Shown: positions 43,463 through 55,713 of the stretch, in pieces
Layout: each line of letters opens with the position of its first letter
Numbering within the stretch: position 1 is the first letter of the stretch
Position numbers and translations under genes: made by a program
The notes under the pieces: generated by a model
What the model was told of the DNA's origin: nothing
What the model saw: only the letters and a program-made list of their open reading frames with translations
The model's database searches: none
DNA from: Pseudeuparius sepicola
Taxonomy: Eukaryota; Arthropoda; Insecta; Coleoptera; Anthribidae
Length of the DNA stretch: 64,000 nt
NCBI GenBank assembly: GCA_963920635.1
Contig: OY987304.1
Location: 35,836,365 to 35,900,364, forward strand
Reading direction: 5' to 3'

Positions 43463-43466
43463 TGCA

Positions 43467-43878
43467 TGTTATATCCGACCTCAAGCATCACCTTGATCAT
43501 AACCTTGTTTTTACCCTTGATTCTGTTTACTGTTGGATATTATGTTCTCATTCTCTATTGTTCAAGATGCTTACTACAAAGATATCATTTTCCATTGTAT
43601 ATTGTTCTAGAATGTTTACTAGAACATATCATATTCCTTTTGAGTATTGTTAAAACTTGCTTACTGCAAGAATTGCAGAATTTGATCTTCCCTTTGTCTT
43701 TATATTCTTTTCCCATGAGAACCACAACACCTCAGCATAACAGATCTGTATAAATAGGACCTAGTAAAGTAAGAGTGTTAATTCTAGTCTTGTCTGTAGT
43801 CTAAGCCGAAACTCTGTAACTCGCGTTACTCAAATAAAAGTTTTTTAAAAAGTCTTCGTCTTCACGTCGCCCGTAACA
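43467..43878 (+). repeat. 5' LTR
   Basis: 412 bp, starting TGTTATATCC and ending CGCCCGTAACA. It holds a TATA box (TATAAATA, 43749-43756) and a poly(A) signal (AATAAA, 43833-43838), giving an approximate U3-R-U5 layout. Confidence 0.95.
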
Positions 43879-43899: not shown

Positions 43900-44218
43900 C
43901 CTCGATAAAAGGGTCTTCAACGAGGGAGATCCGGAGGCACTTAGAAGGACAGTCTCCTCGGGGGTCACCACACCACTACGATTGGAGCCAGCTGAAAAGG
44001 GTCTTCGACAGGAAGATCCGGAGGCACTAAGAAGGACAGTCTCCTGAGGCCAGCATCCAGCAACAACAGCAGCATCAACGACATCCAGCGAGCATGAAGT
44101 TACTTCTATTGTAAGTGAAAAACTTGAAGTGAATTTTATTTGTGATTTTTTTTTGAACTTTCTACGTTGCTATTATTGAACTTTCTACGTTATAACGATA
44201 TTACCTTTTCATTTCAAC
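43900..44218 (+). other. Retroelement leader with imperfect duplication
   Basis: A segment containing AAAGGGTCTTC, GAGATCCGGAGGCACT and AGAAGGACAGTCTCCT occurs at about 43908-43963 and again at about 43996-44055. This untranslated leader lies between the PBS and gag and may contain packaging signals (inference). Confidence 0.7.
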
Positions 44219-45415
44219 ATGCCGAATAACGAAGCTATAAACTCTAATGTAAACAATGAAGCAAACGCTTCAAATAACGACGAAGTACCATTTAAATTAA
44301 GCGAAATATTTTCTATCATCCCTGAATACGATGGGGATCAAATCAATTTAAATACTTTTATCATTGCATGTGATAGGGCCATGCAAATGACTGTTGGCGA
44401 CCAAGCCATTTTACTTGTTATAAAAATTAAAAATCAATTAAAGGGACGTGCAGCCCAACTCATTAATTCAAGAGATTTGAGTACCTGGCGCGAAATCAAA
44501 CAATTACTTAACGTTCATTTCGGAGATCCTCGCGATCTAACTTCATTAATTCAAGATTTACAAAGAATGTGTCAATCCCAAAATGAAAATGCTTTGACTT
44601 TTGTAGGCAGAGTTCAAACTCACTGCTCGAAAATGTATGCCGCAATAGGAAAACAAAGCCTTCTCACTAGGGAACAAAAAGAATCGCAAGCTACATTAAT
44701 CGATAGCATGTGTTTAAATACAGTTTTGACAGGTTTAGAACCAAGAATAGGGCAACTAATTCGTGCTAGCAATCCACCAAACATGATGGATGCTATAGCT
44801 TTAATTAAGAGAGAATTGCAACTTTCTTATTTTGAAAATCAAAAATTTCAGAGGCAAAATCGTGTACCAGTCTTCAATAATAATGTTAAGAGAACAAATA
44901 ATAGTTTTCCAAAATTTTGTAATTATTGCAAAAGAAATGGACATACTATCAATGAATGTCGAACAAAAAATCAAAATAATTATTACAGAAATGGTCCAAA
45001 TCCTTCTAGCTTCTCTAACAATTTCCAAAATAACTCCCAAAGAAATAATTTCTCCCAAAATAGGTTCCATCAAAGACCATCTTTTCCTCAGCAAAATAAT
45101 TTTCAAACTCCTTCTTTCCAACCTAGGAACCACCCTCAAAACTTCCAACCAAGAAATCAACCTCCTAGAAATTTTTCTAATAATATTCCTAGAAACAATT
45201 TCCCAAGAACTTTTAATAATAATTCAGGTTTCCAGCCTTCTAATCAAAATTTTACTCCTAGATTCCCAAATTCAAATCCAATTAACCAAAATAGAACTCC
45301 CCAACAACATTATCTGGGCCAAAGCGAAAATTTTCAATTAACAGCCTCGGACCAGAATCCTATTCCCAACTTCAAGAATCTTGGTATGACCAATACGGAC
45401 CAAACGTTTGCATAA
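44219..45415 (+). CDS. gag: Retroelement gag protein
   Basis: 398 residues, intact. Residues about 25-210 form the helical capsid-like region of gypsy gag (Thr/Leu-rich, with a GRAAQLI motif and a later conserved LTGLEPRI segment). A single CCHC zinc knuckle (C234-x2-C237-x4-H242-x4-C247) identifies the nucleocapsid part. The tail from about 250 is very rich in Asn, Gln, Phe and Pro with many RN repeats, consistent with RNA binding or condensation. The gene stops at 45413-45415, while pol is already open in the -1 frame from 45244, so Pol is expected as a Gag-Pol fusion by frameshifting. The gag start at 44219 follows the leader directly and is the first good ATG. Confidence 0.93.
   Translation: MPNNEAINSNVNNEANASNNDEVPFKLSEIFSIIPEYDGDQINLNTFIIACDRAMQMTVGDQAILLVIKIKNQLKGRAAQLINSRDLSTWREIKQLLNVHFGDPRDLTSLIQDLQRMCQSQNENALTFVGRVQTHCSKMYAAIGKQSLLTREQKESQATLIDSMCLNTVLTGLEPRIGQLIRASNPPNMMDAIALIKRELQLSYFENQKFQRQNRVPVFNNNVKRTNNSFPKFCNYCKRNGHTINECRTKNQNNYYRNGPNPSSFSNNFQNNSQRNNFSQNRFHQRPSFPQQNNFQTPSFQPRNHPQNFQPRNQPPRNFSNNIPRNNFPRTFNNNSGFQPSNQNFTPRFPNSNPINQNRTPQQHYLGQSENFQLTASDQNPIPNFKNLGMTNTDQTFA
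45328..45334 (+). promoter_or_regulatory. Candidate -1 ribosomal frameshift site
   Basis: In the gag frame the heptamer reads A AAT TTT, the X XXY YYZ type. A slip here enters the pol frame, which is open to beyond the nested transposon. A downstream stimulatory structure was not evaluated. Confidence 0.5.
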
Positions 45416-48050
45416 ATACCGTTGACAATAGCAATCTATATTATATTAAAGATAATACCGATAAGTACAAAATTTTAATTGACACAGGAGCTGGTATTTC
45501 AATTTTCAAACCAGAGACGGTTCAGCAATTTTTAAATCGATGTCCAGAAAATTTTCAAATTAAAGGTATTTCTGGCCAATCAATTCCTATTACTGAAGCG
45601 GTATTTGTTTCTTTTACGGGTCCTCTTTCTCCCCATAAAGTTTATATTTGCGATCTAGATATAGGATTCGACGGAATTTTAGGCGCTGACTTTTTAGAAA
45701 GGTACGGTGCAGTAGTAGATTTTAGGAATAAACAATTAATTACGTACTATAAGGTACACGAATTACTCAAAGACGGAGATGAATTAAACGAGTTAACGAA
45801 TAATAATGATAATAATAATCGAGTTGTTTATAAAAGACAAGTTAATGTTGACGAAAGATACGATAGCCTTCATATAAACGCTTATGAACGAAATAATAAT
45901 AATAATAACGATTACACGGAAAATATAAATAATTTTGAAAGCGAAAATACGAGTTATAATATAAATCAGGTTACGATAGAACCGCGTTGCGAAAAAATAT
46001 GCAAGTTTCATACGAATAGATATACGAATAAAGAAATGATTTTATGCGCACAACGAGTAGAAAAGGTATACGTGCCAAATGCTATAGAAAAAATAAACGA
46101 AGACGCTAATTTTTATACGACAATATTAAACGCTAATGCCATAACAAAGGATATTTGTTTCGAAGAATTTGAATTTGAGCCTTACATTAAAGAAACGAAC
46201 GCTAGTGCTAATATTATTTGTAATTTTAATAAAACGAAAAGCAGAGTAGAAGAAATAAAAGAATCATTAAGGCTAGAACATTTAAACGAAGAAGAAAAAG
46301 AATTAATTACTAATTTATGCTTGAATTTTGAAGATATATTTTACTTTGACGGAGATTTCCTAAGTTTCACTAATGAAATAAAACATACTATCGATACAGG
46401 CGACGCTAAGCCAATTTTTACTAAATCTTATCGATATCCACAAGTTCACAAGGAAGAAGTAAAAACACAAATTAATAAAATGCTTTCTCAAGGAATAATT
46501 AGACCTTCTGTTTCACCATGGTCGTCCCCAGTATGGGTCGTTCCAAAAAAATTAGACGCTTCAGGCAAACAAAAATGGAGAATCGTAATTGATTATAGGA
46601 AATTAAATGAATTAACAGTTAATGACAGGTATCCACTGCCTAATATTTCAGATATATTAGATCAGTTGGGTAATTGCCATTATTTTACTACTTTAGATTT
46701 GGCTTCTGGTTTTCAACAAATTGAAATGAATCCAGAAGACCTTTCGAAAACTGCTTTTTCCGTTGAAAATGGACATTTCGAATATTTACGTATGCCCTTT
46801 GGCCTTTGTAATGCGCCCTCAACCTTTCAGAGGGTTATGGATAATATACTAATGGGGATACAAAACGAAAAGTGCTTAGTTTACATGGACGACATTATTA
46901 TTTATTCTTCCACAATTAATGAGCATATCTCTCGTGTTACTGAAGTTTTTCAAAGATTAAGAAATTCAAATCTAAAAATACAGCCAGATAAGTGTGAATT
47001 CTTACGAAAAGAAGTAATTTATTTAGGACATGTTATTACACCTGAAGGGGTTAAACCAAATCCACAAAAAGTACAAGCTGTTATCGATTTTCCTCAACCT
47101 GCCAATACTAAACAAATTAAACAATTTTTGGGTCTTACTGGTTACTACAGGAAGTTTATTCCAAATTTCGCAAAAATGACAAAGCCTTTAACTCGACTTT
47201 TAAGAAAAGACGTACCATTTATTTTTGATAAAGATTGTCGTGAATCTTTCGAACAACTTAAAAATGCATTAATAACTTCACCAATTCTAATATATCCTAA
47301 TTTTGAAAAAGAATGTGTTTTAACTACAGATGCAAGCGCTTTTGCTGTAGGCGCGGTACTTTCGCAAGGACCTGTTGGAAATGATCTTCCCATAGCATAC
47401 TTTTCAAGAACCTTAAGTCCAGCAGAAATGAAATATAGCGTTATAGAGAAAGAACTTTTGGCAATAATTGCTGCCGTAAAAAACTATAGACCTTATCTTT
47501 TCGGACGAAAATTCTTATTGGTTACAGATCATAGACCTTTAACCTGGCTTTTCTCAATAAAAGATCCCGGTAGTCGTTTAGCACGTTGGCGACTTAAATT
47601 AGAAGAATATAATTATCAAATAATTTCTAAACCTGGAAAAATTAATCGAAATGCCGACGCTTTATCTCGAATCAAAATCAATCATATAAAAGAAGCTGTT
47701 TCCTTTCATACTTCCCTAGACGAACCATCTACTTCCCATGATAATCCTCAAGACATTGACCCGCCTATTGACAATAATGAGACTGACGAAATTGCTATAA
47801 TCTGTAATGAATTTGACAGATTTTTTGATCTATACAAGACGACTTCAATGATCGACTATTCTAAAATCCAATATACAAATAATCAACTTTTAGACAAAAC
47901 ACACAAGGACATTGTACTAATTTTTCAACAAGACAAATTAACAGACCTTCACGAAAAAGTTATTAATGATTTACTTGAGCTAAATCCTGATTTTAACTAT
48001 AATAAAGCAAATGTTCTTTCCAGTCAAACCGTAGCTAAAAGAAAATATTA
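45335..48050 (+). CDS. pol: Retroelement pol, 5' part: protease, reverse transcriptase, RNase H
   Basis: Read in the -1 frame relative to gag. The aspartic protease motif DTGA starts at 45481 and its partner ILGADFL lies at 45676-45696. An Asn-rich linker follows (about 45790-46000). Counting from the internal ATG at 46036, RT has LDLASG with D221 and the catalytic YMDD at 283-286. RNase H has TDAS with D432, E471, D498 (TDHRPL) and D541. All catalytic acids are present. The copy is cut off by the nested transposon after 48050, leaving the integrase on the far side. The two pol flanks are not in register across the TA duplication, so at least one small further change has occurred. The protein would replicate the element by reverse transcription in gag particles. 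Confidence 0.92.
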
Positions 48051-48653
48051 TACAGGGTTAACTATGACTTAGTACAAAAATTTTTACCACGTGCGCAGGG
48101 TGGCTTAAGAAAACATAGAAAAATATTTTTAGATTTTTTTTACGATCTTTAAAAAAACGGGTAAAGACCCCTATTTTCCCTGTAAATCCCCGCCTTTAAT
48201 GACGTCATCCAATTTGGCTTCTGAAGGTACTGACAGCTGAAGTGATTTTCCGCGGTGTTGCCGTTGATTTAGGAACGGTGAAAATACCTTTTTACTCAAA
48301 CAAATTTAAAAAATACATAAATAACAATCGATTTGAATCTGTACAGATGCAGCGCTATTAGATTCCCCTTACCTTAGCTCGTATCCGGACCGGTTCCTAC
48401 TCTCGCGGAAAGCTCATTACCGCGACACCACAAGCCGTCTCCCTTAATACCCCCGGAGCTCCTCTGATGAATTCTTGTCCACCATCTAACCTCTTCTGAA
48501 GCATAGATAAAGGATTTATTGTTCTGAAGCCTCGGCGGTATGAATTAAGCGACGTATCGGCCCGGTCGAGTCTATGAAACGTTTTTTCGACTGCTCCGCG
48601 TTGCCCCGTTCGTCATTTCATAACTTCCTAGCTAGGCAACTAACTGTACATAC

Positions 48654-49634
48654 AAGGTTTATTCCAACAGGGCCAATAACCGTGCTCAAGCACGTTCAGC
48701 GCATGCGCACTACCCCACTGGCTGTTCCAACTGAATTATGTACCTACCGACACGGGACGATACACGCACTGTTCCAGCCGATTTATGGATCATTTGTGTA
48801 TCGTCCTTGTACGATAAAAACGGTGCCTGGTCTAAAGCAATAACCGCGTGTACTGACATGCGCAGTGTATGGTCGTGTGACAGAGATAAACATTAACATC
48901 ATATTTTTGTTTTTACGTAGATAGGTTTAAATCGATGGCTGGGATCGTGTTTTTTATTTCTTGTTGGTTTTTGGCTTGTTGGGTAGGGCGGGGAATCGTT
49001 GAACAATTTTTCCGTTCCATCTGAAATTTTCTTTGGGATCATTTGTTCCAACTCGAATTTACGTACCGTCACAGAACTGCACATGAACTAGATGATAACC
49101 CTTAAAGAACGCATGCGCTAGTTTTGCACCGTTCATGTGCGATCCCAAAGAAAATTTCAGATGGAACGGATTGTGAATCAAATCGACCAAATCACGTTTT
49201 GCGACCGCACCTAACCTGCGTGTTTAATATGTGGCTAACCGAATGTTCGGTGGGCTAACCTCACTCTTCACTCTAAAAAATTATTGTTCAACGATTCCCC
49301 GCCCTACCCAACAAGCCAAAAACCAACAAGAAATAAAAAACACGATCCCAGCCATCGATTTAAAACCATCTACGTAAAAACAAAAATATGAGGTTATTGT
49401 TTATCTCTGTCACATGACTACATTGCGCATGTCAGTACACGCGGTTATTGCTTTAGACCAGGCACCGTTTTTATCGTACAAGGACGATACACAAATGATC
49501 CATAAATCGGCTGGAACAGTGCGTGTATCGTCCCGTGTCGGTAGGTACATAATTCAGTTGGAACAGCCAGCGGGGTAGTGCGCATGCGCTGAACGTGCTT
49601 GAGCACGGTTATTGGCCCTGTTGGAACAAACCTT
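48654..49634. mobile_element. 981-bp foldback element
   Basis: Left arm (48654 to about 49007) and right arm (about 49278-49634) are nearly identical inverse copies, starting AAGGTTTATTCCAACAGGGC. A second, inner inverted pair (TTTCCGTTCCATCTG... at 49007-49040 and its inverse at 49141-49171) lies off-centre between them. Open frames seen on opposite strands are just the two arms. No target duplication is evident. It lies in the 5' region of the nested transposon. Confidence 0.85.
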
Positions 49635-49741
49635 TTCAAGTTTGGCTAGTAGCCGACGGAGGGCATTTGCGAATGTAACATGGCGTTATTTCCCAGTTTT
49701 GTCTTGATTTTCGCGGCAAATCGTTCAGCGTCTTTGTGAAA

Positions 49742-51046
49742 ATGCCGGAGTATTCGAACGCCGAGTTAACGGACATGGTTATAATGTACGGGAGATGCGA
49801 TGAAAGTGCACATCGAGCTGCAGCAGAATACCGTATTCGTTTTCCTAACAGGGCAAATATGCCTAACCCACGTACTTTCGTGAACATTGTACAACGTATG
49901 CGAAACACTGGTGTTTTGCAAGCTCGAAGGGGTGGACCTGGAGGGCAAATGAACATGGACGATGTTGAGTCAGTGCTTGATTTGGTGGAAGAGCAACCTT
50001 CCATAAGCACTACAGCTATTGCAAGGAGATTGGGAATATCTCAGAACAAGGCAAGTAAAATAAAACCAATAAAACTGACTTCTACCAAAGACTATCCCAT
50101 GTGATGGGATTGTCTTTGCTTGCACCTAATACCTACATAAAATTTAAAATGTAACAATACAATTATTTACAGGCATGGAGGATTCTAAGGGAAAACGGCC
50201 TTCACCCTTATCACATACAAAAGGTCCAAGCATTAGAAGCAAATGATTTTCCGGTGAGAATGACCTACTGCACTTGGCTACGTGATCGAATTGCCCAAGA
50301 CCCAAACTTTGTTTTCAACATTCTTTGGACAGACGAATGCTGCTTCACACGTGCTGGGGTTTTAAACACGTATGTAAATTTTTACTTACTTATAGCTTTC
50401 TCTCCTCCATATTATCTTTTTTATTTATTATAAAATTGGCTATGTCAATCCTAACGCCTTCGCCAAAATTGTGAATATTTCTAATTTTTGTTTTTTTTTT
50501 TTAGACACAACAGCCATATTTGGTCCGATGAGAACCCACATGCTGTTCGGCGGTTTAATTTCCAACGTCGGTTTTCCATCAATGTTTGGGCTGGAGTTTA
50601 TGGAGATCGATTAATTGGACCATACATTCTACCGGAAAATTTAAACGCTGAACGATACTTGTATTTTCTGACAAATGTTTTGTTTGATAATTTGCCACTA
50701 CAAGTACTGCATGACATGTGGTTTATGCACGATGGTGCACCAGCCCATTTTGCGAGACCTGTTCGTGCACTTTTAGACGACCAATGCCCCAACCGTTGGA
50801 TCGGAAGAGGAGGGCCCATTGCATGGCCGCCGCGATCACCAGACTTTTTGTATTTGGGGATTCATGAAGGCGATTGTGTACGAGCAGGAAATCGACAACG
50901 AGCAGCAGTTACGTGAACGAATTGAAGGTGCAGCTGTCCAAATCCGGAATAATCATGGACTTTTTGCACGTATCCGGACTTCTTTAGTTAACCGAGTGAA
51001 TTTGTGCATCGAAGTTAACGGCGGCCTCTTTGAACAGCTACTGTAG
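49742..51046 (+). pseudogene. DDE transposase of the nested transposon, broken
   Basis: Three exons can be inferred. Exon 1, 49742-50050, is a DUF4817-type helix-turn-helix with an NPRTFVNIVQRMR segment. Exon 2, 50173-50369, contains ILWTDE with the first catalytic Asp at 50332-50334. Exon 3 begins at 50505 (HNSHIWSDENPH) and contains MHDGAPAHF with the second Asp at 50731-50733. Intron 1 (50051-50172) has a GC donor (AAG|GCAAGT) with an AG acceptor; intron 2 (50370-50504) is GT-AG. Around 50845-50848, right after PPRSPDF, the segment that normally carries the third acid is deleted and the frame shifts; the C-terminal part resumes in another frame (WGFMKAIVYEQEI...) to the stop at 51046. The protein is therefore catalytically dead in this copy. 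IS630/Tc1-mariner superfamily by motif and TA target. Confidence 0.85.
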
Positions 51047-51621
51047 TGCTTTGCATGTGCATTTGTGCAATGTGTGCTAGTGCAGTTGTGATTTTTCGGT
51101 TACCCTTCGGGGTTTTCCTGGCGGAGGGGATCTACCTCGTCGTGGTCGTCAGGCTGAGTACCTCGCTTCAAACAAAAGGAATAGCAGAGGGAAACCAAGA
51201 GATCCCCAACAGATTTAAAAAATGTGAATGTTGTGTTGTGTGACTTTTAATGTAAAAAAGCAAGAAAACAGAAAATGGTGCAAACAATCCTGGAAATGTC
51301 AGTAAGGTAGGTGTTTCATAGGCATTCTACATGTTCCTCAGAAAGTAATCGTTTTTAAAAGGAAATCGAAATTTTGTGGTGAATCCTCGGATAAATTGAT
51401 AGACGTGGCAACGCGGCGCTATTGACATATGCGAAATTTTTAGACATGTCGCGCGGGCGTCCATAGGCGGCGTTTTTTGAGGGGTTTAATGCAATTTGAA
51501 AAAAAATTTTTTTAGGCTTAAGACAAATGTTAGAAAATTTTTGAAAATTTATTTTAGCAAGTCTAATTTTTCTTTATCTGCCATAAAAATTTTTGTACTA
51601 AGTGATAGTTAACCCTGTATA

Positions 51622-53359
51622 ATTCCTGTTCCTTTTAATTTTGAAACCGCAATACAAGTACTCTTCATATCTCTTTATTACAGTAAAGATATATTCGAAG
51701 AAAATAAAACTTATTACATTGCAAACAATCCAGATTTTCCAATTTTAGAAATGTTTAATTTTTTTGTTCTCAGATAAAAATTTCCAACTAACAATTTGTC
51801 AGAACATTGTGACTATACCAGACGAAGACCAAATACCTATAATAATAGATCAATTTCATTCAGGCAAGACAAACTTACATCGAGGAATAAACGAAACAAT
51901 TAGACGTATTAAACAAAAATATAATTGGACAGGACTAACTAAAGACGTTGAAACCTTTATTCGACAGTGCGAAATCTGCCAAAAGACAAAAATTTGTAGA
52001 CAAAACTTGGACAGTCCCTTAGTTATTACCGAAACTCCTAAAACTCCTTTCGAAAGAATAAATATCGATATCCTAGAAATCCCAGTAAAAAATAATATCC
52101 TTACCATAAGAGACGAACTAACAAAATTTACCCAAGCTTATGCACTTCCTAATAAAACAGCGAGATCTGTAGTAGACGCTCTTTTACTCTATTTTCAACA
52201 TTTTGGAACTCCCTTAAGAATCCATTGCGATGTAGGTAAAGAATTTAATAATCAATTAATGAAAGATCTTTGTAAATTATACAATATAAAATTAACTTTC
52301 TCTAGTGTTAGTCATCCGCAATCAAATGGCTCCTTAGAAAGATTTCATGCCACCTTAACTGAAATGATACGCGCATGTAGTACAGAAAATCCTAACGAAC
52401 ACCCATTTCAAATGCTTCCTTACGCTTGTATAGCATATAACAATTCTATAAATAAAACACACGGCTTTACTCCTTACGAATTGCTATTCGGTCACACCTC
52501 GTCTCGACCTCCAGAAGTTTTGTATAATCAGCAAGAATTAATCTCTAAGTACGTTCGCGATTTAAACAATAAAATAAAGCATTATTATGAAGTGGCAAGA
52601 AAGCGTACGGATATGCGCAAACAAAAGGCGAAACAGCGATTTGATACACACGTTTCGGAGCAGCGACAATTTCTCGTAGGAGAAAAGGTTTATGTCAAGG
52701 AGTCCCAAATAAAAAATAAACTAGCTAACAAATTTAATGGACCCTATAAAATTAAAGAAATTTATACGAATTCAGCTTTGCTACATAACCCAATTACTAA
52801 CCAAACTACAAAAATGAATTTTGATATGCTAAAGAAATGTCACGAATTACAGGAAGAAGAACTAACGGTTAAAGAATTCTTTTATACTCTAGATCGAAAA
52901 ATCCCTATTGAAAATAATAACGTTTCCATTGAACTGGGCAATTTATTTGATGCCCCTGAAAATATTTCCTTAGCCCACTGTGTATCTAAAGATTTAGAAA
53001 TGAATGCAGGAATTGCAAAAGAATTTAAGAATAAATTTGGACACGTAGATGAACTAAAAAATCAAAATAAGTCAATTGGTGAAATAGCAGTACTTCAACT
53101 TCCGACAAGAAATATTTATTATTTAATAACTAAAGATTTTTTCTATTATAAACCAACTTATGCTAATTTATTTAATTGCTTGAAGGAATTACGAACAAAT
53201 TGTCTCGAGAGCACTGATGAAAAAGATAAAATTATAGCTATACCCAAGTTAGCTTGTGGATTAGACAAATTAGATTGGGATACAGTTCTCCCTATGATCA
53301 AATATATTTTCAAAAATACTGATATTAAAATAATTTGTTATATCGAACCAAGTTCCTAA
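51622..53359 (+). CDS. pol: Retroelement pol, 3' part: integrase fused to macro domain
   Basis: Resumes after the nested transposon. A short part (51622-51758) is in one frame and, after a one-base shift in the T7 run at 51759-51765, the rest is open from 51749 to the stop at 53357-53359. Numbering from 51764, the integrase HHCC zinc finger uses H32, H39, C69 and C72. The catalytic triad is D102, D156 and E192 (35 residues between the last two). A GPY/F module lies at about 306-330 (KFNGPYKI). After a linker, residues about 387-527 form a TARG1-like macro domain (separate entry). No stop, intron or repeat border separates integrase from macro domain, so they are made as one polyprotein; whether the protease separates them is unknown. 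The end overlaps the env frame by 25 bases. Confidence 0.9.
52922..53344 (+). other. TARG1/OARD1-like macro domain in pol
   Basis: About 141 residues downstream of the integrase. Matches the family of small ADP-ribosyl-glutamate hydrolases (TARG1/OARD1): GNLFDAPENISLAHCVS at the start, NAGIAKEFKNKFG (the loop that binds the distal ribose), IYYLITK, KPTYANL and ACGLDKLDW. The positions equivalent to the human TARG1 catalytic Lys84 and Asp125 are K457 (codon at 53132-53134) and D501 (53264-53266); both are kept. The domain is complete, ending at ...IKIICYIE. Known TARG1 proteins remove ADP-ribose from proteins and hydrolyse O-acetyl-ADP-ribose; the same activity here is inference. Several animal RNA viruses carry other macro domains, but a TARG1-type domain within a retroelement pol is not something I know as standard. 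Confidence 0.92.
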
Positions 53360-55249
53360 TTCTGAAACTTCGTTACAGATTTTCTTTGTTCGCTACCGCT
53401 ATGGCACAATATACACTGCGACCAATTAATAACACCATAGGCGTGTTCTATCAAGAGCAATCCGGACCCAAAATTTCTAATGACAAGTGGAGTTTATTGG
53501 TGTATAAAGACATTTCATCTCTAAAAACAACATTCGAAAATAATAATAAAATTTTAGAAAATATGCAGTTTATAATTCAACCAAAAGACGTACGAATGGC
53601 CGCCTTTCTAAGCGAAGTTAAGTCACATCTCACTTTACTAAATCAACTTTCCGAAAACATTGCGCTCAAATTTGAAGAATTAGCTATTGATGTAAGAAGA
53701 TATAAAAGAGGTTTAATTAATGGTTTAGGGTCAGTTTGGAAATTTATTACCGGAAATTTAGACGCTTCAGACGGACAGTATTATAACGATTGTATCGACA
53801 AAATTAACAGAGACGAACACGAATTAGAAAAATTAATGAAAAAACAAATTTTAGTAACTACTTCAGTTATCAAAAACTTTAACGACTCTATCAACAAATT
53901 ACAAATTGATGAAATTACTTTTAATAATGACATAAAACAAATCGAAAATTACATTTATAACATTTCTGATAATTTTAATTATTACACTGCAAAATTACAA
54001 GTTTTAGAGATGGCCGAAAGACTCCTAGAATCCTATACCTTTATCGAAAGCAATTTAAATGACATTCTAAACTCTATTACTTTTGCAAAGTTACATATTA
54101 TTCACACGTCAGTTATAACTCCTGAAGACCTGGTTCATCATTTGCAAATAATCGCTCAAACTTTAAACAAAAATAATTTACCCTTAACTCCTCAACTTCA
54201 AAATGTTGCAACTTATCTTGATTTTATAGAACTAAAAGTTTTTCAAACAGAAAATAGACTTGTTTTTATATTAGATATTCCTTTAGTAGAACCTCAATGG
54301 TATACTCTATAGAATTTATCCTATTCCAATTTTCGACAATAAAACTGGATTTTATCACATGGTATCCACTGATACTAAATTTGTAGCAAAAAGCGATGAC
54401 CCAACTCTCTATGTAATTCTCTATGATATAAAAAATTGTAAAGAACTAGCATTTGATTTAATAATGTGCAAGGATTTATATCCTACTCCTATTGACTCAC
54501 ATTCAAGATGTGAAGCTCAATTATTAGAGGTAAAAACCCATTTACCTAATACTTGTGACATAGTCACAATTTTAATTGAAAGTTACAATGTACAATTGAT
54601 TCAAGAGAATCAATGGTTAATAATTTTAAGTGAAATATTTCCTATAACTATTAAGTGTAAAAATCAAAATCCTTTGACTATAATGCTAGACAAAACTTCA
54701 ATTTTAACGTTAAAATCCGAATGCATTGCCTATATTGGAAGTACTAAAATTCAAACGAAAAATTTAAATAAATCTAATCAAACCTATAAATTTCACCCAA
54801 TTAATATACCATTTGAATGTTGCAAAGAAACTCCAAATAAACTAAAATATCCTGACTTAAAACCTTTACAACTAAATAAATTTAATTATGACGATTTAAA
54901 TGTCGCAAAGCATAAATTAGACGAATATGCAAAGGATCTTGATAATATTATTAACGAACCAACTGTAAATAAGTATACGCCAATATTGACATATCTATCC
55001 ATTGCTTTAATCATACTTTTAATTATTGTGTACTTTTATTTTAAATGTAAAAAGTCTAGGAACATTAAAATAGGTATTATTACTACTAACAACGGAGACG
55101 ATCCTCCACAACCTCCTAGAACTCGAAATCACGTTTTTCAAAATTTAAGAAAATTTGTTACTGTCAAAAGAAGACCTTCGTATAGATTGGACGAACCTCG
55201 CGAAGAAGAAGAAATTGAACTAAATTCTAATACTAAAACATATGCCTAA
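53335..55249 (+). pseudogene. env: Errantivirus-like envelope gene, frameshifted
   Basis: Two frames make one envelope-like protein: 53335-54312 and, one base out of register, about 54302-55249. Features are a possible N-terminal hydrophobic start (residues 5-24), a furin-like RRYKR at residues 121-125 (from 53695) followed by a Gly-rich fusion-peptide-like segment, coiled-coil-prone helices, Cys residues in the second half, one C-terminal membrane span (second frame, about residues 207-229) and a charged tail. This is the layout of insect errantivirus envelope proteins, which are related to baculovirus F proteins. The single-base shift near 54300-54312 breaks this copy. The start is uncertain (53335 or 53401) because errantivirus env is usually translated from a spliced RNA. 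Confidence 0.85.
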
Positions 55250-55297: not shown

Positions 55298-55709
55298 TGT
55301 TATATCCGACCTCAAGCATCACCTTGATCATAACCTTGTTTTTACCCTTGATTCTGTTTACTGTTGGATATTATGTTCTCATTCTCTATTGTTCAAGATG
55401 CTTACTACAAAGATATCATTTTCCATTGTATATTGTTCTAGAATGATTACTAGAACATATCATATTCCTTTTGAGTATTGTTAAAACTTGCTTACTGCAA
55501 GAATTGCAGAATTTGATCTTCCCTTTGTCTTTATATTCTTTTCCCATGAGAACCACAACACCTCAGCATAACAGATCTGTATAAATAGGACCTAGTAAAG
55601 TAAGAGTGTTAATTCTAGTCTTGTCTGTAGTCTAAGCCGAAACTCTGTAACTCGCGTTACTCAAATAAAAGTTTTTTAAAAAGTCTTCGTCTTCACGTCG
55701 CCCGTAACA
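55298..55709 (+). repeat. 3' LTR
   Basis: 412 bp, identical by eye to the 5' LTR except at 55446 (A, versus T at 43615). The poly(A) signal is at 55664-55669. Followed by the TGCA duplication. Confidence 0.95.
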
Positions 55710-55713
55710 TGCA

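Follow-up and report, generated by a model that had tools for sequence, protein, structure and literature searches.

Why should an insect retroelement carry, inside its polymerase polyprotein (Pol), a domain resembling an enzyme that acts on ADP-ribosylation? The question is raised by a Ty3-type element lying in a 64,000-nucleotide stretch of the genome of the beetle Pseudeuparius sepicola (assembly GCA_963920635.1, contig OY987304.1, positions 35,836,365 to 35,900,364 of the forward strand), hereafter the window. An earlier note, made from the letters of the window, had described an open frame running from the DDE core and GPY/F module of an integrase straight into a macro domain, and had proposed that the element captured a host TARG1-type domain. 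Here we examine the identity of the domain, its distribution in this genome and in other insects and viruses, its probable origins, and what it may do for the element.

Identity of the domain

The frame at 51749-53359 (plus strand, 536 amino acids) runs from stop to stop without interruption. Pfam recognizes in it the integrase zinc-binding domain (Integrase_H2C2, residues 26-81, 1.9e-16), the integrase core (rve, residues 99-190, 9.2e-11) and, above its cut-off of 22 bits, the Macro profile (residues 412-516, 24.5 bits, 2.7e-5). The DDE triad is complete (D 52067, D 52229 and E 52337, with a last spacing of 35), the glutamate lying slightly past the end of the Pfam core match. It is followed by the sequence FNGPYKI, which we take to be the GPY motif, so that the fusion described in the earlier note is borne out.

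Searched alone against PDB sequences, the macro piece matched five human TARG1/C6orf130 chains (1.7e-36 to 2.3e-36). The matching part, residues 5-140 of the piece (52934-53341), lies within 12 bases of the 52922-53344 given in the note. An AlphaFold2 model of 52862-53356 reached a pLDDT of 93.9 and a pTM of 0.89, and Foldseek ranked TARG1 (4j5s) first for this model, with a root-mean-square deviation of 0.9 and 47% identity. A separate model of the integrase tail with the macro domain had a poor integrase part and was set aside. In both sequence and structure searches the nearest solved structure was TARG1, ahead of DarG and the viral types. The equivalents of TARG1 Lys84 and Asp125, whose numbering and roles are those given in the available text of PMC9411070, are both present. 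The TARG1 match was recovered in the sequence, in the AlphaFold2 model and in Foldseek, and chance resemblance was ruled out. We conclude from alignment and predicted model, the latter supporting the macro fold, that the domain is of TARG1/OARD1 type and in frame with the integrase.

Copies of the window family

A search of the source genome with the macro query gave 917 candidates, of which the best 150, ranked by the macro domain itself, were scored. These 150 lie on 11 contigs and all match the query at 98-100% over the query without internal stop, one copy lacking the last query residue; uninterrupted frames near 1498 residues in length occur repeatedly in this set. Because the ranking is by this domain, the number of decayed copies cannot be read from these best 150 of 917. 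The other loci that were fetched (29 of 29) are colinear with the window in the macro domain and the adjoining integrase and env parts, several having gaps or rearrangements further out. Among 130 copies chosen and scored by their env, 85 have a macro match at the expected distance. Of the remaining 45, 20 were fetched, taken from the higher entries rather than at random, and 19 of these have the domain in place, seven with insertions or deletions.

The earlier note had named relatives without the domain, with a chimeric assembly in the window, as the finding that would overturn its proposal. The best 150 of 917 copies, the 29 colinear loci and the env-chosen copies, most of which carry the domain, rule out such an assembly. 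The window family is young, high-copy and abundant in this genome. Since its two long terminal repeats (LTRs) differ in the window copy at one of 412 positions (LTR position 149), the uniformity of the domain within the family says little by itself.

One domain at three places in Pol

Further families were reached with a second macro query and with a snail OARD1 query; the latter served also to look for a host OARD1 or tandem-macro gene, but its matches in this genome were swamped by element copies. The families were placed by tblastn with the window domains and by Pfam. Family B (L043-L054, L056), to which B2 (L064) is related, has the order protease, macro, reverse transcriptase (RT), RNase H and integrase. 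Where its RT matches at full length, it shares 81-83% identity with the RT of the window; L048 showed no RT. Family C (L031-L036, L070) is organized as gag, protease, macro and RT, with RT identities to the window of 46-47% in L031-L034; L069 was assigned to it by a macro domain of 92% identity. Families D and E (L055, L057-L060, L062, L063) carry the domain between RNase H and integrase, and are 67-69% identical to the window in RT, where it was seen, and 36-41% in the integrase core. Consequently, a single genome holds the domain at three positions in Pol: between protease and RT, between RNase H and integrase, and at the C-terminal end of the integrase. Although the RTs of the window family and family B are about 82% identical, their macro domains share 47-51%.

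Some loci stand apart. L065 was assigned to no family. In L066 and L067, protease, macro and env lie near one another, and the stretch read contains neither RT nor integrase. L062 (3040-3969) and L063 (3431-4390) hold about 310 similar residues between macro domain and integrase that have no Pfam match.

Relatives in other insects and in viruses

The last protein search returned 43 proteins, in 19 of which blast detected parts of RT, RNase H or integrase. Of these 19, 17 have the domain behind RNase H or in front of the integrase, one (P0069) has it between protease and RT, and one (P0066) after integrase and chromodomain. Among these 19, the tie to integrase seen in the window family recurs in P0066. 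The species include the sawfly Athalia rosae, the beetle Leptinotarsa decemlineata and the aphid Uroleucon formosanum, and thus three insect orders. In P0013 (Rhamnusium bicolor) an RNase H end motif, typical by eye, precedes the macro domain. Pfam ties two more proteins to retroelements: P0096, which combines protease, macro and Baculo_F env, and P0093, which has its macro domain at the C-terminal end and matches a reverse transcriptase. The macro domain of P0066 is followed by a weak rhabdovirus-glycoprotein-like match.

Other proteins have different partners. In P0003 and P0079 a TARG1-type macro domain is joined to a GDSL esterase, with a PHD match below its cut-off in P0003; both may be ORF1 (first open reading frame) proteins of long interspersed nuclear elements (LINEs) of CR1 type, and P0085 is LINE-like by eye only. 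A macro-plus-esterase module shared by P0003 and the families with the order RNase H, macro and integrase was hinted at by hit lengths and rejected, Pfam showing no esterase in L062 and L063. P0091 (46 member sequences, source ENA) is a LIG3-type DNA ligase with BRCT and an internal TARG1-type macro domain. Finally, 11 proteins, 7 of them from named insects, have a common further region beside the macro domain (P0055, P0057, P0059-P0062, P0065, P0067, P0068, P0071 and P0075), which by eye resembles a second, degenerate macro domain. They may represent a cellular insect gene, the members of which are possible donors.

Viral structures were also matched. The best matches of Foldseek against BFVD included VP8 of Kadipiro virus (44% identity), by lineage a seadornavirus and an arthropod-borne double-stranded RNA virus, together with thrips flavi-like and virga-like viruses and iridescent viruses; a weaker match was to an entomopoxvirus. 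In a viral contig collection a single-protein query found no relative and a profile query found 5 loci.

Probable exchange and origin of the domain

A tree of RT and RNase H, built from 16 of the 19 proteins bearing RT, RNase H or integrase (without P0066, P0070 and P0095) and six rows from the genome or window, makes the window family and family B sisters (99/98). Their domains are distributed reciprocally. The sequences of B2 (L064) and the window family correspond on either side of the spacer between protease and RT, and of the two only B2 has the domain in this spacer. Behind the integrase the reverse holds: B (L061) ends shortly past a shared NFDMLK, whereas the window family continues into its macro domain. 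Given sister families with such reciprocal presence and absence, we infer either a loss at one site with a gain at another, or a move of the domain.

The larger macro tree comprises 38 of the 43 proteins of the last search (without P0056, P0071, P0093, P0095 and P0097) and 19 of the 51 of an earlier search. In it the window domain groups with P0002, P0013, P0073 and P0076 (96/87), and the domain of family B with D and E (99/85). This topology favours replacement of the window-family domain from a lineage other than its sister's, which is likely. In approximately unbiased tests, whose groups were named after the trees had been seen, grouping the window domain with the B, B2, B3 and H rows was marginally rejected (p 0.0405) and grouping it with the wider B-E set was not (p 0.336).

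A single origin of the retroelement macro domains had appeared in a first tree of 16 rows (93/84), which omitted P0016 and P0054. It fell with more rows, when the Ty3 proteins P0070 and P0078 joined the branch of insect macro proteins that we take as the cellular gene (98/92). Because the window domain lies off this branch and P0070 and P0078 lie on it, these trees make repeated transfer between hosts and elements likely, in whichever direction. The TARG1 type proposed in the earlier note stands, with the catalytic residues in place; the proposed capture from a host is qualified by the position of the window domain outside the insect cellular-type branch.

Catalytic residues, selection and possible function

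The equivalents of Lys84 and Asp125 are present in all 69 aligned TARG1-type domains, retroelement and cellular. Among the readable loci of this genome, a few of which are the same place fetched twice, the lysine occurs in 94 of 94 and the aspartate in 92 of 94 (L071-L076 entered this count only). For the macro domain, the ratio of non-synonymous to synonymous substitution (dN/dS, NG86) was tried in 13 pairs, not independent of each other, two of which were saturated; the 11 values range from 0.08 to 0.58 and 8 are below 0.25. Counts of silent and changing differences within the family were set aside, as their copies had been picked by macro score or by lacking an entry in the macro list, and one such count aligned 18 of 32 loci.

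From the sequences and the predicted fold, we think it reasonably probable that the element needs an ADP-ribose eraser carried in its Pol-containing particle, namely a predicted TARG1-type mono-ADP-ribosyl hydrolase built into Pol. The domain would be made with every Pol and would pass into the particle along with RT and integrase. There it would strip off ADP-ribose put by host transferases on the element's proteins, RNA or complementary DNA (cDNA), and so might keep reverse transcription, nuclear steps or integration from being blocked. According to the available text of PMC8053099, TARG1 substrates comprise ADP-ribose on acidic residues and on terminal phosphates of DNA and RNA. A variable position in Pol combined with a nearly invariant catalytic pair points to an activity required inside the particle or the pre-integration complex, and not to a particular contact with integrase. 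Kadipiro virus, which as an RNA virus does not insert into host DNA, carries the same domain type in its VP8; this is easier to reconcile with a broad countermeasure to host ADP-ribosylation than with a function confined to integration. Both roles had been offered in the earlier note, and it is the one directed against a host response that gains, the role at integration sites being less favoured. Likewise, the notion of an integrase-linked accessory made with every Pol describes the window family and P0066; other families have other Pol sites, and the constant is delivery with Pol. More tentatively, and with rather less confidence than even chances would warrant, we propose that insect endogenous retroviruses repeatedly made a TARG1-type eraser a movable Pol module, disappearing from one site and reappearing at another, owing to an unrecognised ADP-ribosylation defence of insects against retroelements and viruses.

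Several observations weigh against a needed eraser. Among the papers listed by the one literature search aimed at it, there was no direct case of host ADP-ribosylation defence against insect retroelements. The aspartate is lost in single copies, to histidine in L056 and by deletion in L086, and in one of the 20 fetched env-chosen copies (L090) only the last 119 bases before env are left; such losses are what decaying copies would show, but they do not prove constraint. Of the 11 dN/dS values, three stand at 0.31, 0.41 and 0.58; saturation is nearly reached in several pairs, and the decay that each single copy carries raises the ratio. In family C, locus L035 has a stop within the macro domain.

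A domain that acts at DNA, clearing ADP-ribose from cDNA ends or integration-site nicks as a partner of integrase, would suit its attachment to integrase in the window family and the presence of a TARG1-type domain inside the LIG3-type ligase P0091. Such action has enzymatic precedent in the available texts, in which TARG1 and DarG reverse thymidine-linked DNA ADP-ribosylation (PMC9411070) and TARG1 clears 5' or 3' terminal DNA phosphates (PMC8053099). We nevertheless regard it as unlikely, since related families have the domain away from the C-terminal end of integrase, some between protease and RT, and a double-stranded RNA virus has the same domain. Macro domains frequently bind ADP-ribose without cleaving it, and the domain might instead be a reader that guides integrase or the whole particle towards chromatin where PARPs are active, or might act on free ADP-ribose derivatives. 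The C-terminal end of integrase does host targeting modules such as chromodomains, and in P0066 a chromodomain is followed by the macro domain; yet both catalytic residues, dispensable for a pure reader, are kept in all 69 rows, and the other Pol positions are unlike a targeting tail, which makes a reader quite improbable. It is harder still to believe in a useless passenger, captured by accident and spread through the success of its family: the youth of the window family makes its uniformity weak evidence, and single copies have lost the aspartate or most of the domain, but open domains with the catalytic pair persist across families of about 45-65% protein identity, at different positions in sister families and in records from three insect orders. 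A chimeric assembly or chance resemblance can be dismissed, with the best 150 of 917 copies (on 11 contigs) matching the full query, 29 other loci colinear, and TARG1 matched in sequence and fold.

Should the activity of the favoured eraser be confirmed, host ADP-ribosylation would emerge as an obstacle that insect retroelements have to get past, and a defined enzyme domain would offer the means to find the tagged molecule. One accessory domain at three Pol places in related families of one genome is in addition a natural record of gain, loss and replacement in a polyprotein.

The element in the window

The paired LTRs with their target site duplication (TSD), and the Pol order protease, RT, RNase H and integrase, identify a Ty3 element (Metaviridae), RT and RNase H being strongly matched (RVT_1 3.8e-40, RT_RNaseH 2e-36) and the protease weakly (0.032). 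We call it errantivirus-like by virtue of the env of Baculo_F type downstream of pol. The window copy is broken, because its env is in two frames and a DNA transposon inside pol splits it between RNase H and integrase; the frame of integrase and macro domain is intact (Table 1).

Table 1. Coordinates of the element and its parts in the window
Feature	Position	Strand	Evidence or remark
TSD TGCA, left copy	43463..43466	.	same 4 bases at 55710-55713
5' LTR (TGTT...AACA)	43467..43878	+	412 nt; pairs with 55298-55709
Candidate primer binding stretch	starts 43879		
gag frame	44180..45412	+	weak Retrotrans_gag match (0.0051, under the cut-off)
pol frame, first part: protease, RT 46543-47037, RNase H 47299-47610	45295..48069	+	
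Nested DNA transposon	48051..51619 (ends approximate)	+	inverted ends, TA flanks; about 3.6 kb
pol frame, second part: integrase, macro domain and stop	51749..53359	+	Pfam
Integrase zinc-binding domain	51824..51991	+	PF17921 1.9e-16
Integrase core per Pfam	52043..52318	+	PF00665 9.2e-11
Presumed GPY motif (FNGPYKI)	52733..52753	+	
TARG1/OARD1-type macro domain	52934..53341	+	PDB match 1.7e-36, Pfam Macro, AlphaFold2, Foldseek, VIA
Lys84-equivalent codon (AAA)	53132..53134	+	alignment to TARG1
Asp125-equivalent codon (GAC)	53264..53266	+	alignment to TARG1
env frame, N-terminal part	53329..54312	+	Baculo_F 1.6e-18
env frame, C-terminal part, other frame in this copy	54290..55249	+	Baculo_F 4.1e-14
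3' LTR	55298..55709	+	pairs with 43467-43878
TSD TGCA, right copy	55710..55713	.	same 4 bases at 43463-43466

One frame of the nested transposon matches HTH DUF4817 (4.7e-10), and an inner inverted repeat pairs 48662-48722 with 49568-49626. Of four contig ends of this genome, two have (CCTAA)n, a repeat consistent with an arthropod, one lacks it and one is N.

Comparison with known systems

A literature search that reached few subscription papers found no description of a macro domain in insect errantivirus, gypsy, Ty3 or LTR elements, and in the available text of PMC12992720, on insect endogenous retroviruses, the terms 'macro' and 'ADP-ribos' are absent. Provisionally, a TARG1-type domain in Pol, at several places and in Ty3-type elements of several insects, appears to be undescribed, while retroviruses with macro-domain genes are already on record. 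Ray-finned fish carry epsilon-like sequences with occasional extra open reading frames (ORFs), for example for macro domain proteins (PMC4977317, in its available part, citing Basta et al. 2009). These are likewise retrovirus-type elements with a macro-domain protein; as far as that description goes, theirs are additional ORFs, whereas here the domain is in frame in a Ty3-type Pol and occupies several positions.

The window element shares with errantivirus-like Ty3 elements (Metaviridae) of Baculo_F env type the LTRs, a 4-bp TSD, gag, pol and a Baculo_F env, and differs from them by the macro domain in Pol. Among animal RNA viruses, alphavirus nsP3 and coronavirus nsp3 contain macro domains that have the same fold and act on ADP-ribosylation. 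The bacterial DarG macro domain, in contrast, is an antitoxin that keeps only the lysine of the Lys/Asp pair, as the available text of PMC9411070 has it. The closest likeness is to human TARG1 (OARD1, C6orf130; 4j5r, 4j5s), with which the window domain has the macro fold and the equivalents of Lys84 and Asp125 in common, and to whose crystal structures it is 46-47% identical; TARG1 is a single-domain cellular protein, and the version in the window is a domain of the Pol of a retroelement.
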